Shown: in pieces, positions 11,540-21,670 of the stretch
Position numbering within the stretch: position 1 is the first letter of the stretch
Layout: each line of letters starts with the position of its first letter
NCBI RefSeq assembly: GCF_900109955.1
Contig: NZ_FOJB01000001.1
Coordinates: forward strand, 1,984,001-2,048,000
Source: Aliiroseovarius sediminilitoris
Lineage (GTDB): Bacteria > Pseudomonadota > Alphaproteobacteria > Rhodobacterales > Rhodobacteraceae
Length of the DNA stretch: 64,000 bases
Reading direction: 5' to 3'
Program-made: the position numbers and the translations under genes
Notes under the pieces: generated by a model
The model's input: the letters and a program-made list of their open reading frames with translations, nothing else
Told to the model about the DNA's origin: nothing
Databases searched by the model: none

Positions 11540-11614
11540 TCCGGCGTAGCTCAGCGGTAGAGCAGTTGACTGTTAATCAATTGGTCGTAGGTTCGATCCC
11601 TACCGCCGGAGCCA
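11540..11614 (+). tRNA. tRNA-Asn (GTT)
   Basis: 75-nt cloverleaf with encoded CCA. The acceptor is TCCGGCG/CGCCGGA, the anticodon loop is CTGTTAA (GTT) and the T-loop is TTCGATC. The 3' 45 nt are the left attachment repeat of the integrated element, and an identical copy lies at 21148-21192. The tRNA remains complete after integration. Confidence 0.95.
11570..11614 (+). repeat. Left attachment site (attL), 45-bp direct repeat
   Basis: Identical to 21148-21192. It runs from the anticodon loop to the CCA end of tRNA-Asn. Identity breaks on both sides (A versus C before, A versus T after), which defines the ends. Confidence 0.9.
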
Positions 11615-11680: not shown

Positions 11681-11727
11681 GCGTAAGTTGGGCGTAAGAC
11701 CTCCCGATAGGTCCGCAACTGCGTAAG
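11681..11727 (+). repeat. GCGTAAG repeats at left end (candidate integrase arm sites)
   Basis: Three direct copies of GCGTAAG at 11681, 11692 and 11721, within 115 nt of attL. Matching copies occur near attR (20997, 21009 partial, 21102 inverted). Spacing and position fit arm-type binding sites of a tyrosine integrase. Other copies at 16331 (inverted), 16422 and 16443 weaken exclusivity. Confidence 0.45.
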
Positions 11728-12784: not shown

Positions 12785-13158
12785 CGCACCTCCAACTTCG
12801 CTAGGAGCGCGTCGACCTCGGGCCAGAAGTCGCGGTTCGCCTCGTCGTTGCGCAAGCCGGTCAAGACAGCGAGGGCACGACTGACCACGGCAGCGGCATC
12901 GGCAGGGTCGGCCCCGTCCAAGCGCTCGGTCAGCGCCTTGTCGAACAGTGCGACGAACTCGGCGCCGCTGTAGGTCATCAGGTAGGGCGTGCCGACCTCG
13001 GGCGGGTTGCGTAGCAGGGTGTCAACGGCCTCGCGATAAAGCTCGCTGGTGGTCACGCAGACCATTCGCCCGTTGAGCGTCACCATGCAGAACGCGGCCT
13101 CGTCGCGCAGCGGGCCGATGGCAGCATATCGCCCGTCACCTGTGGAAACGATCTCCAT
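12781..13158 (-). CDS. Hypothetical protein, element operon
   Basis: 125 residues, mixed alpha/beta, no membrane segment or signal. The first 50 residues look like a small beta domain (VSTGDGRYAAIGP, MVTLNGRMVCVTT); the rest is helical. ATG at 13158 overlaps the last base of the upstream DUF5681-type gene. No family recognised. Confidence 0.6.
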   Translation of the reverse strand: MEIVSTGDGRYAAIGPLRDEAAFCMVTLNGRMVCVTTSELYREAVDTLLRNPPEVGTPYLMTYSGAEFVALFDKALTERLDGADPADAAAVVSRALAVLTGLRNDEANRDFWPEVDALLAKLEVR

Positions 13159-13649
13159 CAGTTCACCGCCTTCGCTTCGAGTTGAATAATGCGTTGCTCC
13201 AATTCCTCGGTGGCTCGCACCGAGGACAGGGTGCCAATGGCGGAGACGATTTGCTGCGCCACCTCCGGGCTGACCTTCCCTGTGGCTACCGCATCCAGCA
13301 CCTTCTCGACCTGGGCGCTAATCGGCAACGAGGGGTCGAAGTCGAACTTGACCCGTCCGCTGTCGGCACGGAGCGGGGCGACGACCCGCGAAAGGACGAG
13401 CTGGGCGGCAGCGCTGTCACCGTCCCTCGCCTTGGCGATCATCACGTCCAAAATCTCGCCCGCGCTGTCTTGAAGCATCTTGGCGATCTTGGTGCGCGCG
13501 GTGCCAAACTCAGCCTTCCGACCTGAGGGGTTGGGACTCGCCATCCCTTTGTGCCAGTTCGGGTTGCCCATCTTCGGCTTGGCGGGAACATGGTTCTTCA
13601 ACCAGTCCGGTTGCTCCGCATCGGTCTTCTGGTCACTTTGTTGGCTCAT
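13158..13649 (-). CDS. DUF5681-type protein, element operon
   Basis: 163 residues. Residues about 24-46 carry the GNPNWHKGMASPNPSGRKAE stretch, matching the NPxG/GR signature of DUF5681. This domain is often found near terminase or other phage-type genes, and its function is unknown. A helical middle and a C-terminal coiled-coil (TEELEQRIIQLEAK) follow, suggesting an oligomer. In a satellite-like element a small-terminase-like, DNA-binding role is conceivable, but nothing in the sequence proves it. Confidence 0.65.
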   Translation of the reverse strand: MSQQSDQKTDAEQPDWLKNHVPAKPKMGNPNWHKGMASPNPSGRKAEFGTARTKIAKMLQDSAGEILDVMIAKARDGDSAAAQLVLSRVVAPLRADSGRVKFDFDPSLPISAQVEKVLDAVATGKVSPEVAQQIVSAIGTLSSVRATEELEQRIIQLEAKAVN

Positions 13650-13673: not shown

Positions 13674-14420
13674 TCACGCGTGTTTCTTGTAGACAGCGGC
13701 GCTGGCATTGCGCGCGGCGCGAACCTCGCGGGGCGTGACCTTTCCGACGATGCGGGAGACGCCCGCTTTGTCCTGCTTGATGATCGGCACGGTGCCGACC
13801 GCGCGTTCCATCTCACGAAGGATCAGCCCACCCCGGTTCTCGAGGTGCGTCCGGGCGGCCGTGAGCGCCTTCAGCCGCTTGCTGGCCTCCGGTTTCCGCT
13901 GCTCGTTGTAGGCGCGGAGGAAGACGGCGTGCAGCTCGCGCGTCAAGCCCGAGAGCATGGGCGGTGCGCCCAGCACCGCGGACAAAACTTCGTCGTCCTT
14001 CTCCGCCAGCGCCTGCTCCATCAGCTTCACGCGGTCCTTGCTTGCCTTCATGTGCGCCCGCACCTCGCCGCTGACCGCCTTGCTTGCCTGCTCCTTCACG
14101 GACGCGGACAGGTCGCTTTCCAGCGACTTGATGGTCGTGGTGAACCGGGCAATGGTGCTGTCGAACCGCTGCGTCACAGCGGCCAGCTTGCCCGCCGCAT
14201 GGTCGTCGGTGCGGAGCAATGCAGCTTCCGGGGTCAGCGTCGGGTCGGCAAACGCCGCCGCGCGCACCTCGTGGATGCTGGTAAGGTAGGAATACGCGCC
14301 CTCAAACGCCTCGACCGCCGGGGCGATGAAAGGCGCGGTGTCGGCGTCCACGCCATCCAGCTTCATCACGGTTTCGGGGTGAAGGTCGATGGAGACGCGG
14401 GTGTCAATCTCGGTTGCCAT
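13674..14420 (-). CDS. Hypothetical helical protein, first gene of element operon
   Basis: 248 residues, almost entirely helical with a probable coiled-coil about 80-130 (SVKEQASKAV, VKLMEQALAEKDDEV) and a basic C-terminus ending VYKKHA. No signal or membrane segment. It leads the minus-strand operon that runs to 11920. The 212-nt gap to the plus-strand gene at 14633 must hold divergent promoters. No family recognised; a structural or scaffolding role is possible but unsupported. Confidence 0.65.
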   Translation of the reverse strand: MATEIDTRVSIDLHPETVMKLDGVDADTAPFIAPAVEAFEGAYSYLTSIHEVRAAAFADPTLTPEAALLRTDDHAAGKLAAVTQRFDSTIARFTTTIKSLESDLSASVKEQASKAVSGEVRAHMKASKDRVKLMEQALAEKDDEVLSAVLGAPPMLSGLTRELHAVFLRAYNEQRKPEASKRLKALTAARTHLENRGGLILREMERAVGTVPIIKQDKAGVSRIVGKVTPREVRAARNASAAVYKKHA

Positions 14421-15305: not shown

Positions 15306-15431
15306 GCATTGGCGGGGTGTTGGTGCCACTGTAGCGGCGGCTCTGTGTGCGCACTACATCGTGTTATTAGGCATGGAAAATTGCGCACATATGGACTACT
15401 TATTGATCGATGTGCAATTTCGGACCTTTCG

Positions 15432-16328
15432 ATGACAGAAGACGCATTGGTGACAACGGACCGCAAGCCGGTGGGCTGGTATGAAGAGGTAATACCTGTC
15501 CGCGGCTGTCGGCTCTCGTTGGAGAACATTAAGGACGTCTATCGCGACCTTCACGCCATCAACAGGAAGTTTGGCGAGCAGGTAATTTCGACATTACCGC
15601 GCGAACCGGACTTGACCGATGAGCAGTGGGAGGCGCGGAAGGCTTTTCTCCTTGATGATGCGTTTTGCCTCACCATCACTGTGAACGGCTTGCGGGATCA
15701 GCAGCTATATGGCGAATCCGCAGCGGTCTTTGACGACCCGAACCTTCCGAAGCCCATTAAGTCCATCTTCTTCACCAACGCCACCGCCTTCAAACGACAC
15801 GCCAGCGGCAACGAGCCAGTAAACCGTATCTCGGTCTTTTTGGACTTCGGCAAACCGGAGGTGTTTGACCCGAACCCGCTGGTATCAGCAGCCACAGCCA
15901 ACGAGGGCAACGTAACGGTCATTGCGCAGGACATTACCTTCTTCAACGCGGTTCAGAAGGCCGTTGAGAAGAAGGTGACTACGCACAAAACTTGGTATGG
16001 CGCGATTCACCGGAACTTCGCGTATGACATTGGCATGTGGCTCATCGCGCTGCCGGTGTCGCTCTACTTCTCTGCCTACTACATGGATCAGCTAATACCG
16101 ATTGGCGGGAAGTTTGAGCTGTTTCGCTGGCCGCTGTTCATCTACTTTGTGGGCCTCTCGCTAATCCTCTACCGGGCACTGACGGCCTACGCGAAGTGGG
16201 CTTTTCCCGTGAACGTTCTCGAGGAGAATAAGGATCGCGCGCTAAAGCACCGCCTCGCCTTGGGCGGGTTTGCGTCATGGCTGTTCTACAAGGTCGCCAG
16301 CACGGTCTATGGCATCATTGTGGGGTAG
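15432..16328 (+). CDS. Membrane protein of unknown family, probable cargo gene
   Basis: 298 residues from the ATG at 15432; the longer open frame upstream runs through the preceding terminator region and is rejected. The first 190 residues are a soluble domain. Three hydrophobic segments follow at about 199-222, 233-255 and 276-297. The gene has its own leader (15306-15431) behind a terminator and is transcribed away from the unassigned operon. No family recognised. A single membrane-anchored gene of this kind in a satellite-type element is often an antiphage or superinfection-exclusion factor, but nothing here proves that. Confidence 0.7.
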   Translation: MTEDALVTTDRKPVGWYEEVIPVRGCRLSLENIKDVYRDLHAINRKFGEQVISTLPREPDLTDEQWEARKAFLLDDAFCLTITVNGLRDQQLYGESAAVFDDPNLPKPIKSIFFTNATAFKRHASGNEPVNRISVFLDFGKPEVFDPNPLVSAATANEGNVTVIAQDITFFNAVQKAVEKKVTTHKTWYGAIHRNFAYDIGMWLIALPVSLYFSAYYMDQLIPIGGKFELFRWPLFIYFVGLSLILYRALTAYAKWAFPVNVLEENKDRALKHRLALGGFASWLFYKVASTVYGIIVG

Positions 16329-16508
16329 TTCTTACGCACGCCGTGCCGCTCGGTATAACCACATACCAGACCCATGCAGTTCCCGCCGCTTCCGCCAGAT
16401 GCGCCCTTGAGTGTTGGTAAAGCGTAAGGCGGGCTGGCCCCGGCGTAAGGCACCAATACCCGCATAGGGGGCCTTTCTCACGGCGAGGACAGCTTAAAGC
16501 CGGGAATC

Positions 16509-16858
16509 GTAGCCTATCGTAGCCGCGAGAAATCGGGCTTTTGCCCCAATTGTAGCCACATGATACCTAATAAAAACAGCCACTTGCCGGAATCGTAGCC
16601 ATTGTAGCCGTAGCCGCAGGGGCGTTTGCGAAAATGGTAGCGATTGTAGCGTAGCCCCCAAACACACTTAATCGGATGTATTTTTAGTAAGAGCTAATTG
16701 CGCTACCGAGGTAAACAGACGTTTAATCGCGGCTGCGTGGCGAGATGCGGGAAAGTGGCTACAGTGGCTACGTTTCCCGAAAGCGGCCCGTAACCCCTTG
16801 GCGCATATAGAAATGCACCGTAGCCAGCAAACGGCTACGGTGCGGCTACAGTTGCTAC
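16509..16858. other. GTAGC(C) iteron array, candidate replication origin of the element
   Basis: Sixteen copies of GTAGC in 350 bp. Ten are in plus orientation (16509, 16519, 16552, 16595, 16604, 16610, 16637, 16646, 16651, 16820). Six are inverted (16702, 16757, 16766, 16833, 16844, 16854). Most are GTAGCC. The left block is mostly direct and the right block mostly inverted, with an AT-rich stretch at about 16657-16735 between them. A perfect 8-bp inverted repeat CCGTAGCC-N7-GGCTACGG sits at 16818-16840. There is no coding frame. The array lies just downstream of the DUF3987 gene. Multiple iterons beside a replication-type P-loop protein is the layout of a satellite or plasmid origin. Confidence 0.6.
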
Positions 16859-16886
16859 GGTTGGCGGGCCTTTGCGCTGCCCGTGG

Positions 16887-18347
16887 TCATGCCCATTCCT
16901 TCATCACCTGCGGCGCGACCATAATGAAGCGCTTTTTGCTGCCGATGGCTTGGATAACCCGGATGCGTCCATGGTCCTCCAACAGCTCCACCGCCGCGTC
17001 CAGTTTGGCGCGAACCCTCAGCGGACCCGGACCCTTCTGCTGAACCGTGCGGACGGTGATGCCGGAATCCACCAAGCTCTTGTCCATCCGCAATTGCTGC
17101 GTCAGGTATTCTTCCAACTTCTCCGCGTTCCGCACCTCCTCGGTCATTTCAGCCACCTGTCCAAAGCGCACCGCCTCGTCCAGATACCAGCGCATCAGGG
17201 CGCAGGCATCGACCATTGCTTCCTCGGTGATTGCCGGTTCAGGGGCACCGCTGAAGGTGTGGTAACAGCAGGCCAGCCGCGCCGCGTTCTCCGCCGCCTT
17301 GCTCGCCACGTCTGGAATCCGCGCGTATTCCTCGTCACCGCCCATCCGTTCCTCCACCTCGTCGTGAAAGAACATCCATGTCCGGTGCGCCCTCTCATCG
17401 AGGGAGATGTATTGCGTCACCAGTCGGTCAAACTCGTCAAACACCGCTGGCGCGGCAAGGAGTGCGGTGACGCGGGCGTGGAAGGCACGGAGGGCGGGCA
17501 TGTCGCTTGGCGGGTCGCTGTAGAACCGCGTGCCGCGTGTGGAGGTGGGCTGGCTGAACAGGAACCGGGCGAAATACCCGATGCCCCGCGCGAGGCCCCC
17601 GGCGCGCTGGACAAAGTGATCCAGAACGGCGGGTTGGACTTGCAGACCCATCGTGGCGCACAAGCGTTCAACGTGAATGCTGTCGCGCCCAATCCGGTCC
17701 TGGCTGATTGGTCCGCCATCCCACATCACGTTCACCTGCGCCAAGTTGCCCTGCACGCTCTCAGCTTTCATGCTGTGGGAACCGAAGATCACTCCGGCCT
17801 CAGACGTGATGACAGCGGCGATGGGATAGCTCTGCAATGCCCTGCTCAGTGCCTCCGGGGTATCGTCGCCCCGGAGCATCCGGGCCACCCGAGGCTCGGT
17901 GGGCTTGTCCAGCGGGTTCTTCCCCGCCGCCTCCCAAGCCTCAAGCGCCGCCTCGAAAAGCACCTTCTCGTCACGAGCCTCGCGCATCTGCTGGGCTTCC
18001 CATTCCCGCAGCGGTTCCATGAACAGCTTGTCGATCAGGGTTTTGCGCTCACCCGACTCTGCGACGGTGAGCAGGTAGAGCGAAGCTGGACCGCGAAGCA
18101 CGGCGTCACGCTGGACCCCGAAGCGCGTTTGCACGGCGGCTGACACCACCGACAAGGCGCAGGCCGCAACCATCGCCATAGGCGCTTGCGCGTATGCCTG
18201 CACCTCGCGCACGGCGTCCGCAATGACGGGCGGCAAGCGGTGAACCGGGTATTCCTCCGGTTGCACCCCCTTCCACAGAGGCCGGGGGTTCCAGCCAATG
18301 CCGTTCTTCATAAAGTCGTTCATCGCCTCAGGGGTCAACTTAACCAT
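16887..18347 (-). CDS. DUF3987 (YfjI-family) P-loop protein, probable replication helicase-like
   Basis: 486 residues. A GESG-type P-loop (VAESGERKTLID) near residue 95 and the IAAVITSEAGVIFG and VMWDGGPISQDRIG blocks are characteristic of DUF3987/YfjI proteins from P4-like and CP4-57-like elements. These lie next to primases or helicases and are thought to act in element replication. No primase (zinc finger, TOPRIM) domain is seen in this protein. An iteron-like array follows directly after its stop, supporting an initiator or helicase role. It is transcribed away from the AlpA-like gene, in the same direction. Confidence 0.75.
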   Translation of the reverse strand: MVKLTPEAMNDFMKNGIGWNPRPLWKGVQPEEYPVHRLPPVIADAVREVQAYAQAPMAMVAACALSVVSAAVQTRFGVQRDAVLRGPASLYLLTVAESGERKTLIDKLFMEPLREWEAQQMREARDEKVLFEAALEAWEAAGKNPLDKPTEPRVARMLRGDDTPEALSRALQSYPIAAVITSEAGVIFGSHSMKAESVQGNLAQVNVMWDGGPISQDRIGRDSIHVERLCATMGLQVQPAVLDHFVQRAGGLARGIGYFARFLFSQPTSTRGTRFYSDPPSDMPALRAFHARVTALLAAPAVFDEFDRLVTQYISLDERAHRTWMFFHDEVEERMGGDEEYARIPDVASKAAENAARLACCYHTFSGAPEPAITEEAMVDACALMRWYLDEAVRFGQVAEMTEEVRNAEKLEEYLTQQLRMDKSLVDSGITVRTVQQKGPGPLRVRAKLDAAVELLEDHGRIRVIQAIGSKKRFIMVAPQVMKEWA

Positions 18348-18410: not shown

Positions 18411-18617
18411 TCATTGCATGAGCTCCTTATCCTGCTCGGTGGGGTTCATTGTCCACTGTCTTTTCAGCGGTCGGGTGCCCCCAGCATCCGGCCGCTTTTC
18501 ATGGTGGTTCTTACGCATGTCTTTTCGCGTGGCGGGCGCACGCAAACGCGCCCGCAGTTTGAGTCCGTTAGGGTTGCTGAACATTGTATGCACCCTCAGA
18601 CGGTCGGCCGAAGCCAC
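18411..18617 (-). CDS. Small basic hypothetical protein
   Basis: 68 residues, strongly basic (LKLRARLRAPATRKDMRKNHH). Its ATG lies inside the 3' end of the AlpA-like gene (22-nt overlap), and its stop is 63 nt before the DUF3987 start. An internal Met (about residue 12) is another start. Position between regulator and replication gene is the main support; the composition could also be chance. Confidence 0.4.
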   Translation of the reverse strand: MASADRLRVHTMFSNPNGLKLRARLRAPATRKDMRKNHHEKRPDAGGTRPLKRQWTMNPTEQDKELMQ

Positions 18618-18940
18618 GGCGGGGTGACATGCGAGGTGCGCGCGGGGATGCTGGTGCGCGCACGGCTCTGCGAATGGCGCGCCACGGCGCTGTATTCAGC
18701 GGTCGAGGCGAATGTGCGCTCCGTCAGCCATGCGTCAATGTCACCGCGACGGTAACGCACAGCGGCATTCTTGCCGTCTCCGAGCTTGATGAACTTGGGT
18801 CCGCGTTTAAGGTGACGGTTGAGCTTCATGGTGCTCTCCGCGTAGCCGCAGAGGGGCGCAGCTTCCGCCGTCGTCAGCATATCGTCGGGGTGAGAAGCGG
18901 ACGCAGGTTTTTCACCGCCGTTGGGTTTTGAGTGGGACAT
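18596..18940 (-). CDS. AlpA-like helix-turn-helix regulator/excisionase
   Basis: 114 residues. Residues about 21-72 form the MerR-like AlpA/excisionase winged helix (LTTAEAAPLCGYAESTMKL ... RYRRGDIDAWL). AlpA-type proteins in such elements control integrase expression and excision. A 40-residue tail rich in Ser, Thr and Arg follows. The start follows AGAAAT at a short distance (weak SD). The gene heads the replication module and points away from the integrase. Confidence 0.75.
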   Translation of the reverse strand: MSHSKPNGGEKPASASHPDDMLTTAEAAPLCGYAESTMKLNRHLKRGPKFIKLGDGKNAAVRYRRGDIDAWLTERTFASTAEYSAVARHSQSRARTSIPARTSHVTPPWLRPTV

Positions 18941-19668: not shown

Positions 19669-20985
19669 CTATGCGCGCTGCATGTCCACCACGTTCTCGC
19701 TCGCCGCCTTAGCCGCCGCAATCCGCCCCTGCTCTTCAATCCAGCCCGCCACCTGTTGAACCTCGGGGTAAAGCCATCGAAGATCGGTCAGGTCCAAATA
19801 GCTATTTGCGCCAACATCCCGTTGGTCGGGCTTGTGACCGATCAACAGGTCACCGCGAAACCGCTCTATGCGACAGGCTTTGACCGAGGTTTCGCTAAAG
19901 GTGCGACGCATGTCATGGAGTGAAAGGTGAAGCCCCGCCACCTCGCTCACCTTTTTCATCGTCGCGCGAGGGTCCGTCACGTGACCGGTCCTACCCCGGC
20001 TCGGGAATACAAAGTCGCCATTCGTCATCCGCCGCCGCTCTTTCAGCAGTGCAATCGCCTGCGTCGGCATCGGCAGATTAATCGGCTTGCCCTGTTTCCG
20101 GTCCTTGAGGTGCCAGTAGCACCGCGCCGGGTCGCTTTCGAAATGCACTCTATCCCAAGTCAATCCCGCCCCCTCGTTCTTCCTTCCTCCGCATAGGAGG
20201 CTGAAAATTACCAGATCAACTGCGGACAGCGTGTCGCTATGCGTCGTCTTCTGCCGCAGCTCTTGCAACATGTTCCAGACCGCTCCAAGGCGATCCACCG
20301 GGATATACCGATCCGTCCTGTCGCCCTCGGGTGCCCAACGCTTATTCTTGCCGCGACCATTCAAGACCTGCACCGGGTTTGTGGTAATCAACTGCGTCCC
20401 GTCCGGCAGCGTATAGTCCTCGATGGCGAAGTTGATGAGGGTGCGCAAAACGACCATCGCGGCATTGGCGGTAGATGGCGCGGGCTTCTTGCCGTGCAGG
20501 CCACCCCGCTTCAACTCGGCGTGACGCTCTTTCACCATGTCGCGGTTGATGGAGGCAATGGGCTTGTCCGCCCAATCAGCAAATACCTTGGTGACGTAGT
20601 AGTTGATCCACTTGACCGTGGTGGGTTTCAGGTTGCCGATGGCCAGATATTCCTTGGCCACAGCGCCAAGTGTCACCATCTCAACCTCGTGCTTCTTCTT
20701 CAGTTCGTTCGGGTCAACGCCGTCTTGGAAGAGCTTGCGGTAGTCATCCGCGCGTATCTGCGCTTCTTCCAATGTCAGGCCGCCCTTAACCCCATAGTTC
20801 CCGATGGTGACGCGCCTGTCCTTCGTGGTCCCGCGCACCCGGCCCTGGCAGATGTAGCTGTATACCCCGCCTTTCGTGATCCGCAGGCCAAGGCCGCGCG
20901 TGCTGGTATCCCAATACAACGTGTCCCGCTCGGGGTCGGGTCGCAGCTTCTCAAGGGCAGTTCTGGTGAATTTCATTTTGGGCAT
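19669..20985 (-). CDS. int: Tyrosine integrase of the tRNA-Asn element
   Basis: 438 residues. N-terminal DUF4102-type arm-binding domain, core-binding domain (about 100-190), and catalytic domain with R268 (CGGRKNEG), H357-x-x-R360 (LHDMRR), the LIGHK histidine and nucleophile Y396 (NSYLDL). All catalytic residues are present, so it should be active. It lies 163 nt from attR and reads toward the interior. P4-type integrases with this N-terminus commonly use tRNA 3' ends, in agreement with the attachment repeats here. Confidence 0.93.
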   Translation of the reverse strand: MPKMKFTRTALEKLRPDPERDTLYWDTSTRGLGLRITKGGVYSYICQGRVRGTTKDRRVTIGNYGVKGGLTLEEAQIRADDYRKLFQDGVDPNELKKKHEVEMVTLGAVAKEYLAIGNLKPTTVKWINYYVTKVFADWADKPIASINRDMVKERHAELKRGGLHGKKPAPSTANAAMVVLRTLINFAIEDYTLPDGTQLITTNPVQVLNGRGKNKRWAPEGDRTDRYIPVDRLGAVWNMLQELRQKTTHSDTLSAVDLVIFSLLCGGRKNEGAGLTWDRVHFESDPARCYWHLKDRKQGKPINLPMPTQAIALLKERRRMTNGDFVFPSRGRTGHVTDPRATMKKVSEVAGLHLSLHDMRRTFSETSVKACRIERFRGDLLIGHKPDQRDVGANSYLDLTDLRWLYPEVQQVAGWIEEQGRIAAAKAASENVVDMQRA

Positions 20986-20996
20986 CGTTGAACCTC

Positions 20997-21108
20997 GCGT
21001 AAGACTGACGTAAGACTTTTCAGCTAACTTGCGCTAACCTACGCTAACGTCCAATTGATGTAAACGAGCTTCAAGCACCTGTTTTTAAAGGAACTTGTAT
21101 ACTTACGC
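20997..21108. repeat. GCGTAAG-type repeats at right end (candidate arm sites)
   Basis: GCGTAAG at 20997-21003, CGTAAGAC at 21009-21016 and an inverted copy CTTACGC at 21102-21108, between the integrase start and attR. GCGCTAAC/ACGCTAAC variants lie between them. They match the three copies near attL. Confidence 0.45.
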
Positions 21109-21147: not shown

Positions 21148-21192
21148 CTGTTAATCAATTGGTCGTAGGTTCGATCCCTACCGCCGGAGCCA
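21148..21192 (+). repeat. Right attachment site (attR), 45-bp direct repeat
   Basis: Exact copy of 11570-11614 (3' 45 nt of tRNA-Asn including CCA). It is not a complete tRNA; the 5' half is absent. Confidence 0.9.
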
Positions 21193-21278: not shown

Positions 21279-21670
21279 ATGGGGCTAATCTTGAAGTATG
21301 TAAGGCAACTAAAATCAGGCAGTTGGGAATATCGACGATGAGTTCCCAAGGCGGCAGCAGGGGTTATCACCCAGCGTGAGTTCAAACGCGTTCTCGGAGA
21401 TTGCGAACGGGAAGCTCTCAAGGCCTATCCTGAGTTTCGTCCACAGGTCGAACGGGTGATTGAGCAGGCTCAGCGTCAATCGCGTAAAAAACAGCCGCAG
21501 ACCGTGGTGAACTGACAGCGCGAGCGGCACTTGAAGTGGCCGATGAAAGAGTTGCCTCCCTAGTGGAACGAGCTTACGCCTCCGACGAGCTGGGTGTACG
21601 GGACGCTGTCGCCCGTCGACTTCGAAAACAGACAACAAAACGTCAACAAAGAAGGTGTCTGGAAAACTAG
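21279..21670 (+). pseudogene. Decayed DUF6538-type integrase, N-terminal part
   Basis: ATG 21279 follows AAGGAG. The first frame gives GLILKYVRQLKSGSWEYRR, typical of the DUF6538 N-terminus of another tyrosine-integrase group, then hits TGA. Shifting frame continues with VPKAAAGVITQREFKRVLGD, and a third frame gives ARAALEVADERVASLVER before a stop at about 21668. At least two frameshifts and the loss of core and catalytic domains make it a relic. It starts 87 nt past attR, so an earlier element probably used the same tRNA-Asn site. Confidence 0.7.

Follow-up and report, generated by a model that had tools for sequence, protein, structure and literature searches.

The replication origins of Staphylococcus aureus pathogenicity islands (SaPIs) and phage-inducible chromosomal islands (PICIs) are laid out, in the portions of the published work considered here, as an initiator-helicase gene with short repeats directly behind it, in two sets that flank an AT-rich region (PMC7581432, PMC6092414). 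According to the same portions, SaPI Rep reads its repeats via its C-terminal domain, and iteron reading, melting of AT-rich DNA and self-loading are described or proposed for SaPI Rep, for the PICIs of E. coli and for the Cch2 protein of the staphylococcal cassette chromosome mec (SCCmec) (PMC7581432, PMC6092414). Here we analyzed 64,000 nucleotides of Aliiroseovarius sediminilitoris DNA (contig 1 of the 3.4-Mb genome, positions 1,984,001 to 2,048,000; the window), within which a 9.6-kb integrative element occupies a tRNA-Asn gene and carries an array of ten GTAGC and six GCTAC repeats (16509-16858) beside a gene of the DUF3987, or YfjI, type. We consider it very probable (about 0.82) that this array is the replication origin of the satellite-like element, with the DUF3987 protein as its initiator-helicase.

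As far as the published portions allow comparison, the locus resembles the SaPI/PICI rep-ori in two respects: the iterons lie directly 3' of the initiator gene (28 bp past its stop codon), and they form two sets, of 9 and 7 copies, around an AT-rich stretch at 16656-16701. Computed support for an origin comes from conservation of the repeats, linkage of gene and array, covariation of two bases with two residues, and the predicted fold of the protein. A preliminary description of this DNA, made from its letters alone, had proposed an iteron-type origin working with the DUF3987 protein, and the first three of these lines support it. It had drawn its comparison with P4-like satellites; the idea of a short-repeat origin stood, but the closest layout in the published portions is that of the SaPI/PICI rep-ori rather than that of P4.

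The GTAGC array and its counterparts in two relatives

An exact scan placed GTAGC at 16509, 16519, 16552, 16595, 16604, 16610, 16637, 16646, 16651 and 16820, and GCTAC at 16702, 16758, 16767, 16834, 16845 and 16854, the ten direct and six inverted copies first reported. The set distal to the gene (16509-16655, plus strand) consists of nine GTAGC units in the same direction with recurring spacings of 9-10 bp, and the proximal set (16702-16858, minus strand) of six GCTAC units and one GTAGC, running in the opposite direction. The AT-rich core that separates them (16656-16701) is the proposed melting region, and a 27-bp AT-rich stretch at 16562-16588 may be a second melting element. AT content reaches 70% at 16661-16700, compared with 40% across the element, and the array lies in DNA without a credible gene, its first unit (16854-16858) standing 28 bp from the DUF3987 stop codon (16887-16889), so the gene-free stretch with an AT-rich core is as first described. 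The 8-bp palindrome reported earlier is indeed an inverted repeat but a longer one, with two perfect 11-bp arms at 16815-16843 (minus strand) that bring two units head to head.

Outside the array the unit occurs 32 times in the remaining 63.65 kb of the window (13 of these 32 copies elsewhere in the element), or 0.18 copies per 350 bp, from which at least 16 copies per 350 bp would be expected with a Poisson probability of about 3e-26. This agrees with the claim of a density far above that of scattered copies, and a test for equal density elsewhere, offered in the preliminary description as a way to refute it, thus came out in its favor. One thousand first-order Markov resamplings of 16480-16860 gave a mean of 1.4 copies and a maximum of 6, and six of the 11 occurrences of GTAGC-N(3-7)-GTAGC in the whole 3.4-Mb genome are inside the array. 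A 5-mer present 16 times in 381 bp is not remarkable in its own right: elsewhere in the window CGCGC attains 16, and the best 5-mer in one resampling reached 17 (overlaps counted). Because other 5-mers also reach such counts, copy number alone is not decisive, and the case rests on conservation.

The locus L006 encodes a DUF3987 protein 76% identical to that of the window (72% in the best tblastn segment) and has the same array 3' of the gene. Fourteen of its 16 units are identical, and the unit bases match at 78 of 80 positions, compared with 189 of 274 remaining array columns; none of 5000 random sets of sixteen 5-mers was kept as well as the units. The stem of the inverted repeat is retained while its loop has changed, and the 27-bp AT-rich stretch is unchanged. 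Conservation in related elements, which had been put forward as a check, is therefore found. At L082, where the DUF3987 protein is 53% identical, the order of integrase, DUF3987 gene, array and two homologous downstream genes is that of the window, and the array is built from a different unit, GCGAC, with 16 of the locus's 65 copies in the 500 bp past the gene.

Arrays at other DUF3987 loci and covariation with the winged helix

The DUF3987 family matched in 49 of 394 genomes of the taxonomic family, and the DNA 3' of these genes contains short arrays, often with three units in each orientation repeated at exactly 9 bp. Under a strict test, which required three copies of some 5-mer, spaced 9 + 9 bp, in the 300 bp past the DUF3987 stop codon, such a triplet was present downstream in 31 of 44 discovery loci, compared with 0/45 upstream regions, 15/2366 other tiles, 2/463 regions downstream of other open reading frames (ORFs) and 0/880 first-order Markov resamplings. 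Since the rule was first seen in this discovery set, the later sets serve as its test: together they had a triplet in 50 of 115 loci, with 13/17 at the order level, 25/60 for IMG/VR proteins (a number that includes partial proteins, one of which, L140 with 126 aa, counted as positive), 1/5 for plasmid-collection records, 5/22 for phylum loci and 6/11 for loci of the class outside the family. Controls for the order-level, IMG/VR and plasmid sets gave 0/78 upstream and 17/2377 tiles. Of 41 larger loci, 29 have an integrase gene like that of the window or IntA upstream and in the same orientation; among them is L076, from which a query was taken. A DNA pattern made from 22 conserved bases had no match in IMG/VR.

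An array at this place could instead be a binding site through which the DUF3987 protein, or another protein of the element, represses or activates the downstream genes. It does lie between the DUF3987 gene and the next genes on the same strand, and sites in both orientations would suit a regulator as well. The triplets nonetheless lie 3' of the gene, and the 45 and 78 upstream regions of 300 bp, where autoregulation would place them, contained none; autoregulation from upstream of the DUF3987 gene was rejected on that result. The protein is predicted to have a helicase fold, and the layout matches SaPI/PICI origins in the portions published on them; gene control is thus an unlikely function for the array.

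That fold is predicted to be a minichromosome maintenance (MCM)-like AAA+ helicase with a C-terminal winged helix, the structural match covering the ATPase domain. The 50 VIA rows of the structure comparison are MCM and replisome chains, and SaPI Rep is absent from these rows, which excludes nothing; PDB sequence searches returned nothing with E under 0.1. The winged helix is predicted at about residues 403-478 and would contain Arg433 and Gln437, the two residues at the positions that covary with the unit.

When oriented alike, the units across loci are mostly GC[G/T]A[C/A/T], so that the GTAGC of the first description is real but represents one form of a broader iteron type whose period is 9 bp. 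Among 61 proteins, a G at base 3 goes with Arg437 in 30 of 34 and a T with Gln437 in 23 of 27, and residue 437 stands out among the alignment columns (57/61; next best 46). At base 5, 40 of the 43 proteins whose unit has C carry Arg433, a residue absent from all 18 whose unit has another base; of the eight T units in this first set, seven are paired with Ser433, though it accompanies A in L166 and L178. In a tree built without the C-terminal part (a quick tree, with some long branches), base 3 and residue 437 changed the same way in 10.8 of 12 independent pairs on average and the other way in none (median p 0.001), and base 5 and residue 433 the same way in 8.5 of nine and the other way in none (median p 0.004). 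Later loci carried Gln437 with T in 4/4 cases in the phylum set and, by a rule noted beforehand, in 5/5 cases in the class set; at base 5 the class set had Arg433 once with C (L215) and once without (L218), the other residues falling outside the noted rule. DNA-binding proteins commonly pair arginine with G and glutamine with A.

The 61 proteins derive from 73 with an extracted unit, the extraction favoring words that start with GC. Eleven were left out for a unit that was not GCNNN (L036, L043, L055, L064, L068, L073, L107, L138, L149, L151 and L155) and two for a length below 400 aa (L135 and L140), and L082 was added; one pair of L083 proteins is identical in the tree columns. Units were set by hand for the window, L006, L082, L046, L086 and L093, and residues 433 and 437 were chosen from the alignment as its best two columns. 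The six hand-set units, the 11 excluded loci and the choice of columns could all have inflated the covariation. For base 3 this is countered by the tree-based test and the later sets, whereas base 5 is less well tested beyond the first set. When some of the excluded loci were examined afterwards, L151, L155, L073 and L064 fitted the trend, L068 misfitted at residue 437, and L043 and L138 were ambiguous.

Taken beyond this element, it appears reasonably probable that DUF3987 proteins form a large group of initiator-helicases that load themselves and serve bacterial satellites and related integrative elements, with adjoining iteron origins of 9-bp period and a specificity set by a code of two residues and two bases (at residue 437, Gln for T and Arg for G at base 3; at residue 433, Arg for C at base 5) that has been switched many times.

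Two side observations concern these loci. In several relatives (L067, L053, L056 and others) the iterons, judged by eye, lie inside a small ORF 3' of the DUF3987 gene and would translate as repeats such as ATSATSAT or VAKVAEVA, DNA sites that would then shape a protein sequence. In the enterobacterial-type YfjI loci L076, L079, L088, L091 and L168, which have no array, a common GGTAATATAT stretch follows the gene and is possibly a control site or origin of their own.

Proposed mechanism, points against it and the RNA alternative

We infer the following course for protein-DNA contact, strand melting, replication and their succession. The element's integrase would first excise the element, after which the DUF3987 protein would bind the GTAGC units to either side of the AT-rich core; Gln437 would recognize the middle A/T pair of GTAGC, and Arg433 would recognize its first G. 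A pair of protein assemblies facing opposite ways would then melt the AT-rich DNA, load themselves and begin replication.

Several observations weigh against an origin read in this way by the DUF3987 protein. The spacing of the window array is irregular and fails the strict 9/9 test, and neither it nor the L006 array, both with spacings of 9 and 11, is among the 31 positives. The triplet was found in only 5 of 22 phylum loci (the new loci with enough 3' DNA among those fetched, from 40 places listed), and the enterobacterial YfjI loci L076, L079 and L088 have no triplet 3' of the gene; an array at every DUF3987 locus was rejected on these grounds. Four of the 61 proteins break the base-3 rule, with T and Arg or Lys at L046, L049, L053 and L054, and base 5 has exceptions in L175 (C with Ser433) and in L186 and L218 (Arg433 without C, as their units were read). 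Residues 433 and 437 are placed in a predicted helix at 432-438, which precedes the usual recognition helix (446-458). A primase gene was not recognized among the element proteins searched, some small ORFs lying outside that search. Finally, the array would fold unusually well as RNA (z -5.2).

This folding would suit an array that works at the RNA level, where a long hairpin following the DUF3987 message would serve as terminator, attenuator or stability element, and a terminator-like hairpin is present at 16843-16815. In 23 rows the two unit sets are mutually inverted, with spacers matching across the arms at 88 of 184 positions (48%), compared with 40% for shuffled partners (standard deviation 3.3%). 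Inverted arrays tend to fold well as RNA, however, and a 48% match, slightly above the shuffles, is far from a paired stem even though the units are fully kept. The L006 hairpin has no T-run after it, and unit sequence covaries with residues of a winged helix. Across 22 elements the arms are separated by 13-14, 23-25, 35 or 47 bp, and once by 4 bp, distances that keep step with the helical repeat of DNA (R 0.91 at 10.5 bp; none of 20,000 uniform sets was as phased), which fits protein assemblies on a fixed face of the double helix. With spacers so far from a paired stem and arm gaps that follow the helical turn, the RNA reading was judged unlikely, and we give it very little weight beside a double-stranded site for the DUF3987 protein.

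The element and its relation to known systems

The element of this Rhodobacteraceae genome is bounded by two plus-strand copies of a 45-bp att repeat, one (11570-11614) forming the 3' part of the tRNA-Asn gene (11540-11614) and the other (21148-21192) at the opposite end. Its core genes are on the minus strand and comprise a tyrosine integrase of its own (19669-20985), a small HTH_17- or AlpA-like DNA-binding protein (18596-18940) whose score of 22.6 bits is below the Pfam gathering score of 27, and the 486-aa DUF3987 protein (16887-18347), the proposed initiator, which is predicted to be an MCM-like helicase. The YfjI/DUF3987 assignment of this neighbor in the preliminary description is confirmed by PF13148 (258.9 bits against a gathering score of 27, E 1e-76, residues 54-394), the sole Pfam match within the helicase; the protein has a single close named match, in a Rhodobacteraceae metagenome-assembled genome. 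Downstream are a conserved gene (13674-14420, minus strand), 32% identical over 214 aa to the L082 gene in the same place, and a weakly DUF5681-like gene under the gathering score (13158-13649, minus strand), which shares 47% identity over 137 aa with the equivalent gene of L082. An accessory gene at 15309-16328 on the plus strand, opposite to the core genes, has hydrophobic stretches near its C-terminus by eye and no match in Pfam, PHROG, NCBIfam or PADLOC.

Clustered short repeats could also serve recombination, partition or packaging, as integrase arm sites, a centromere or a pac- or cos-like site, and the element does have an integrase. A different repeat, CGTAAG, forms clusters close to each att end as well as next to the array (11682-11722, 16423-16444, 20998-21009 and 21102); it is a candidate for the integrase arm sites and suits that role better. 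No partition family matched among the element proteins searched, and the array unit covaries with the helicase, so that there is little chance that the array has any of these functions rather than that of an origin.

The right flank gave no match in an empty-site search of 12 tRNA-Asn loci, in which the window's own locus was too short to match. Among 20 other genomes of the genus, six (G001, G007, G011, G014, G016 and G020) contained further exact copies of the tRNA-Asn 3' end (45-62 bp), which in four of these six lie 9-29 kb from the matched tRNA-Asn region, and because of these copies the gene looks like an integration hotspot in the genus. Immediately to the right of the second att copy, a reading frame interrupted by stops (21279-21608) resembles by eye a broken integrase start and is perhaps a remnant of an earlier neighbor element.

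DUF3987 is still named a domain of unknown function, though presumed to be a replication gene of many small mobile elements. If our interpretation is true, the family gains a mechanism, that of an origin-reading MCM-like helicase, and elements with no origin named in the literature passages considered gain candidate ones. There would also be a protein-DNA recognition code with many natural switches, open to simple binding assays on natural pairs, and an element's sequence could reveal both its origin and its compatibility group. In the passages of open-license literature consulted, no origin sequence is named for a DUF3987 helicase, and one may still be in print elsewhere.

A satellite identity for the element is plausible from its core of integrase, HTH_17-like and DUF3987 genes, by analogy with the phage-inducible chromosomal minimalist islands (PICMIs) of Vibrionaceae. 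These are described, in the portions of the source considered, as small elements with int, an AlpA-type gene (PF05930/PF12728) and prim, the last sought by DUF3987 or DUF5906 profiles; in PICMI115 the loss of prim, whose type is unstated there, lowers the circular copy number (PMC10803314). The text does not contain the word iteron, and its portions considered name no origin sequence. The window element shares the integrase and DUF3987 gene and has the low-scoring HTH_17 match, whereas PICMIs are reported there to integrate at fis; because its site is tRNA-Asn, the 9.6-kb element, for which no helper phage is known, was not filed as a PICMI. E. coli CP4-57 (intA, alpA, yfjI) has the same core gene order and a DUF3987 protein and, unlike many DUF3987 loci, no triplet of 9-bp period after yfjI.

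SCCmec Cch2 is described, again in the portions considered, as a helicase of the self-loading type whose C-terminal domain binds short AAGTG repeats 3' of its gene, and it is the related Cch, not Cch2, that is MCM-like (PMC7581432). Cch2 belongs to the Primase_Cterm family and has three iterons in cassette elements, whereas the window protein is of the DUF3987 family. The helicases of the SaPIs named in the same source are of the DUF927 or Primase_Cterm type (PMC7581432), and the arrays beside DUF3987 genes differ further in their GC[G/T]A[C/A/T] unit with a 9-bp period, their role as origins being proposed from sequence. By analogy with those islands, the array in the window would extend the SaPI/PICI type of layout to a DUF3987 element.
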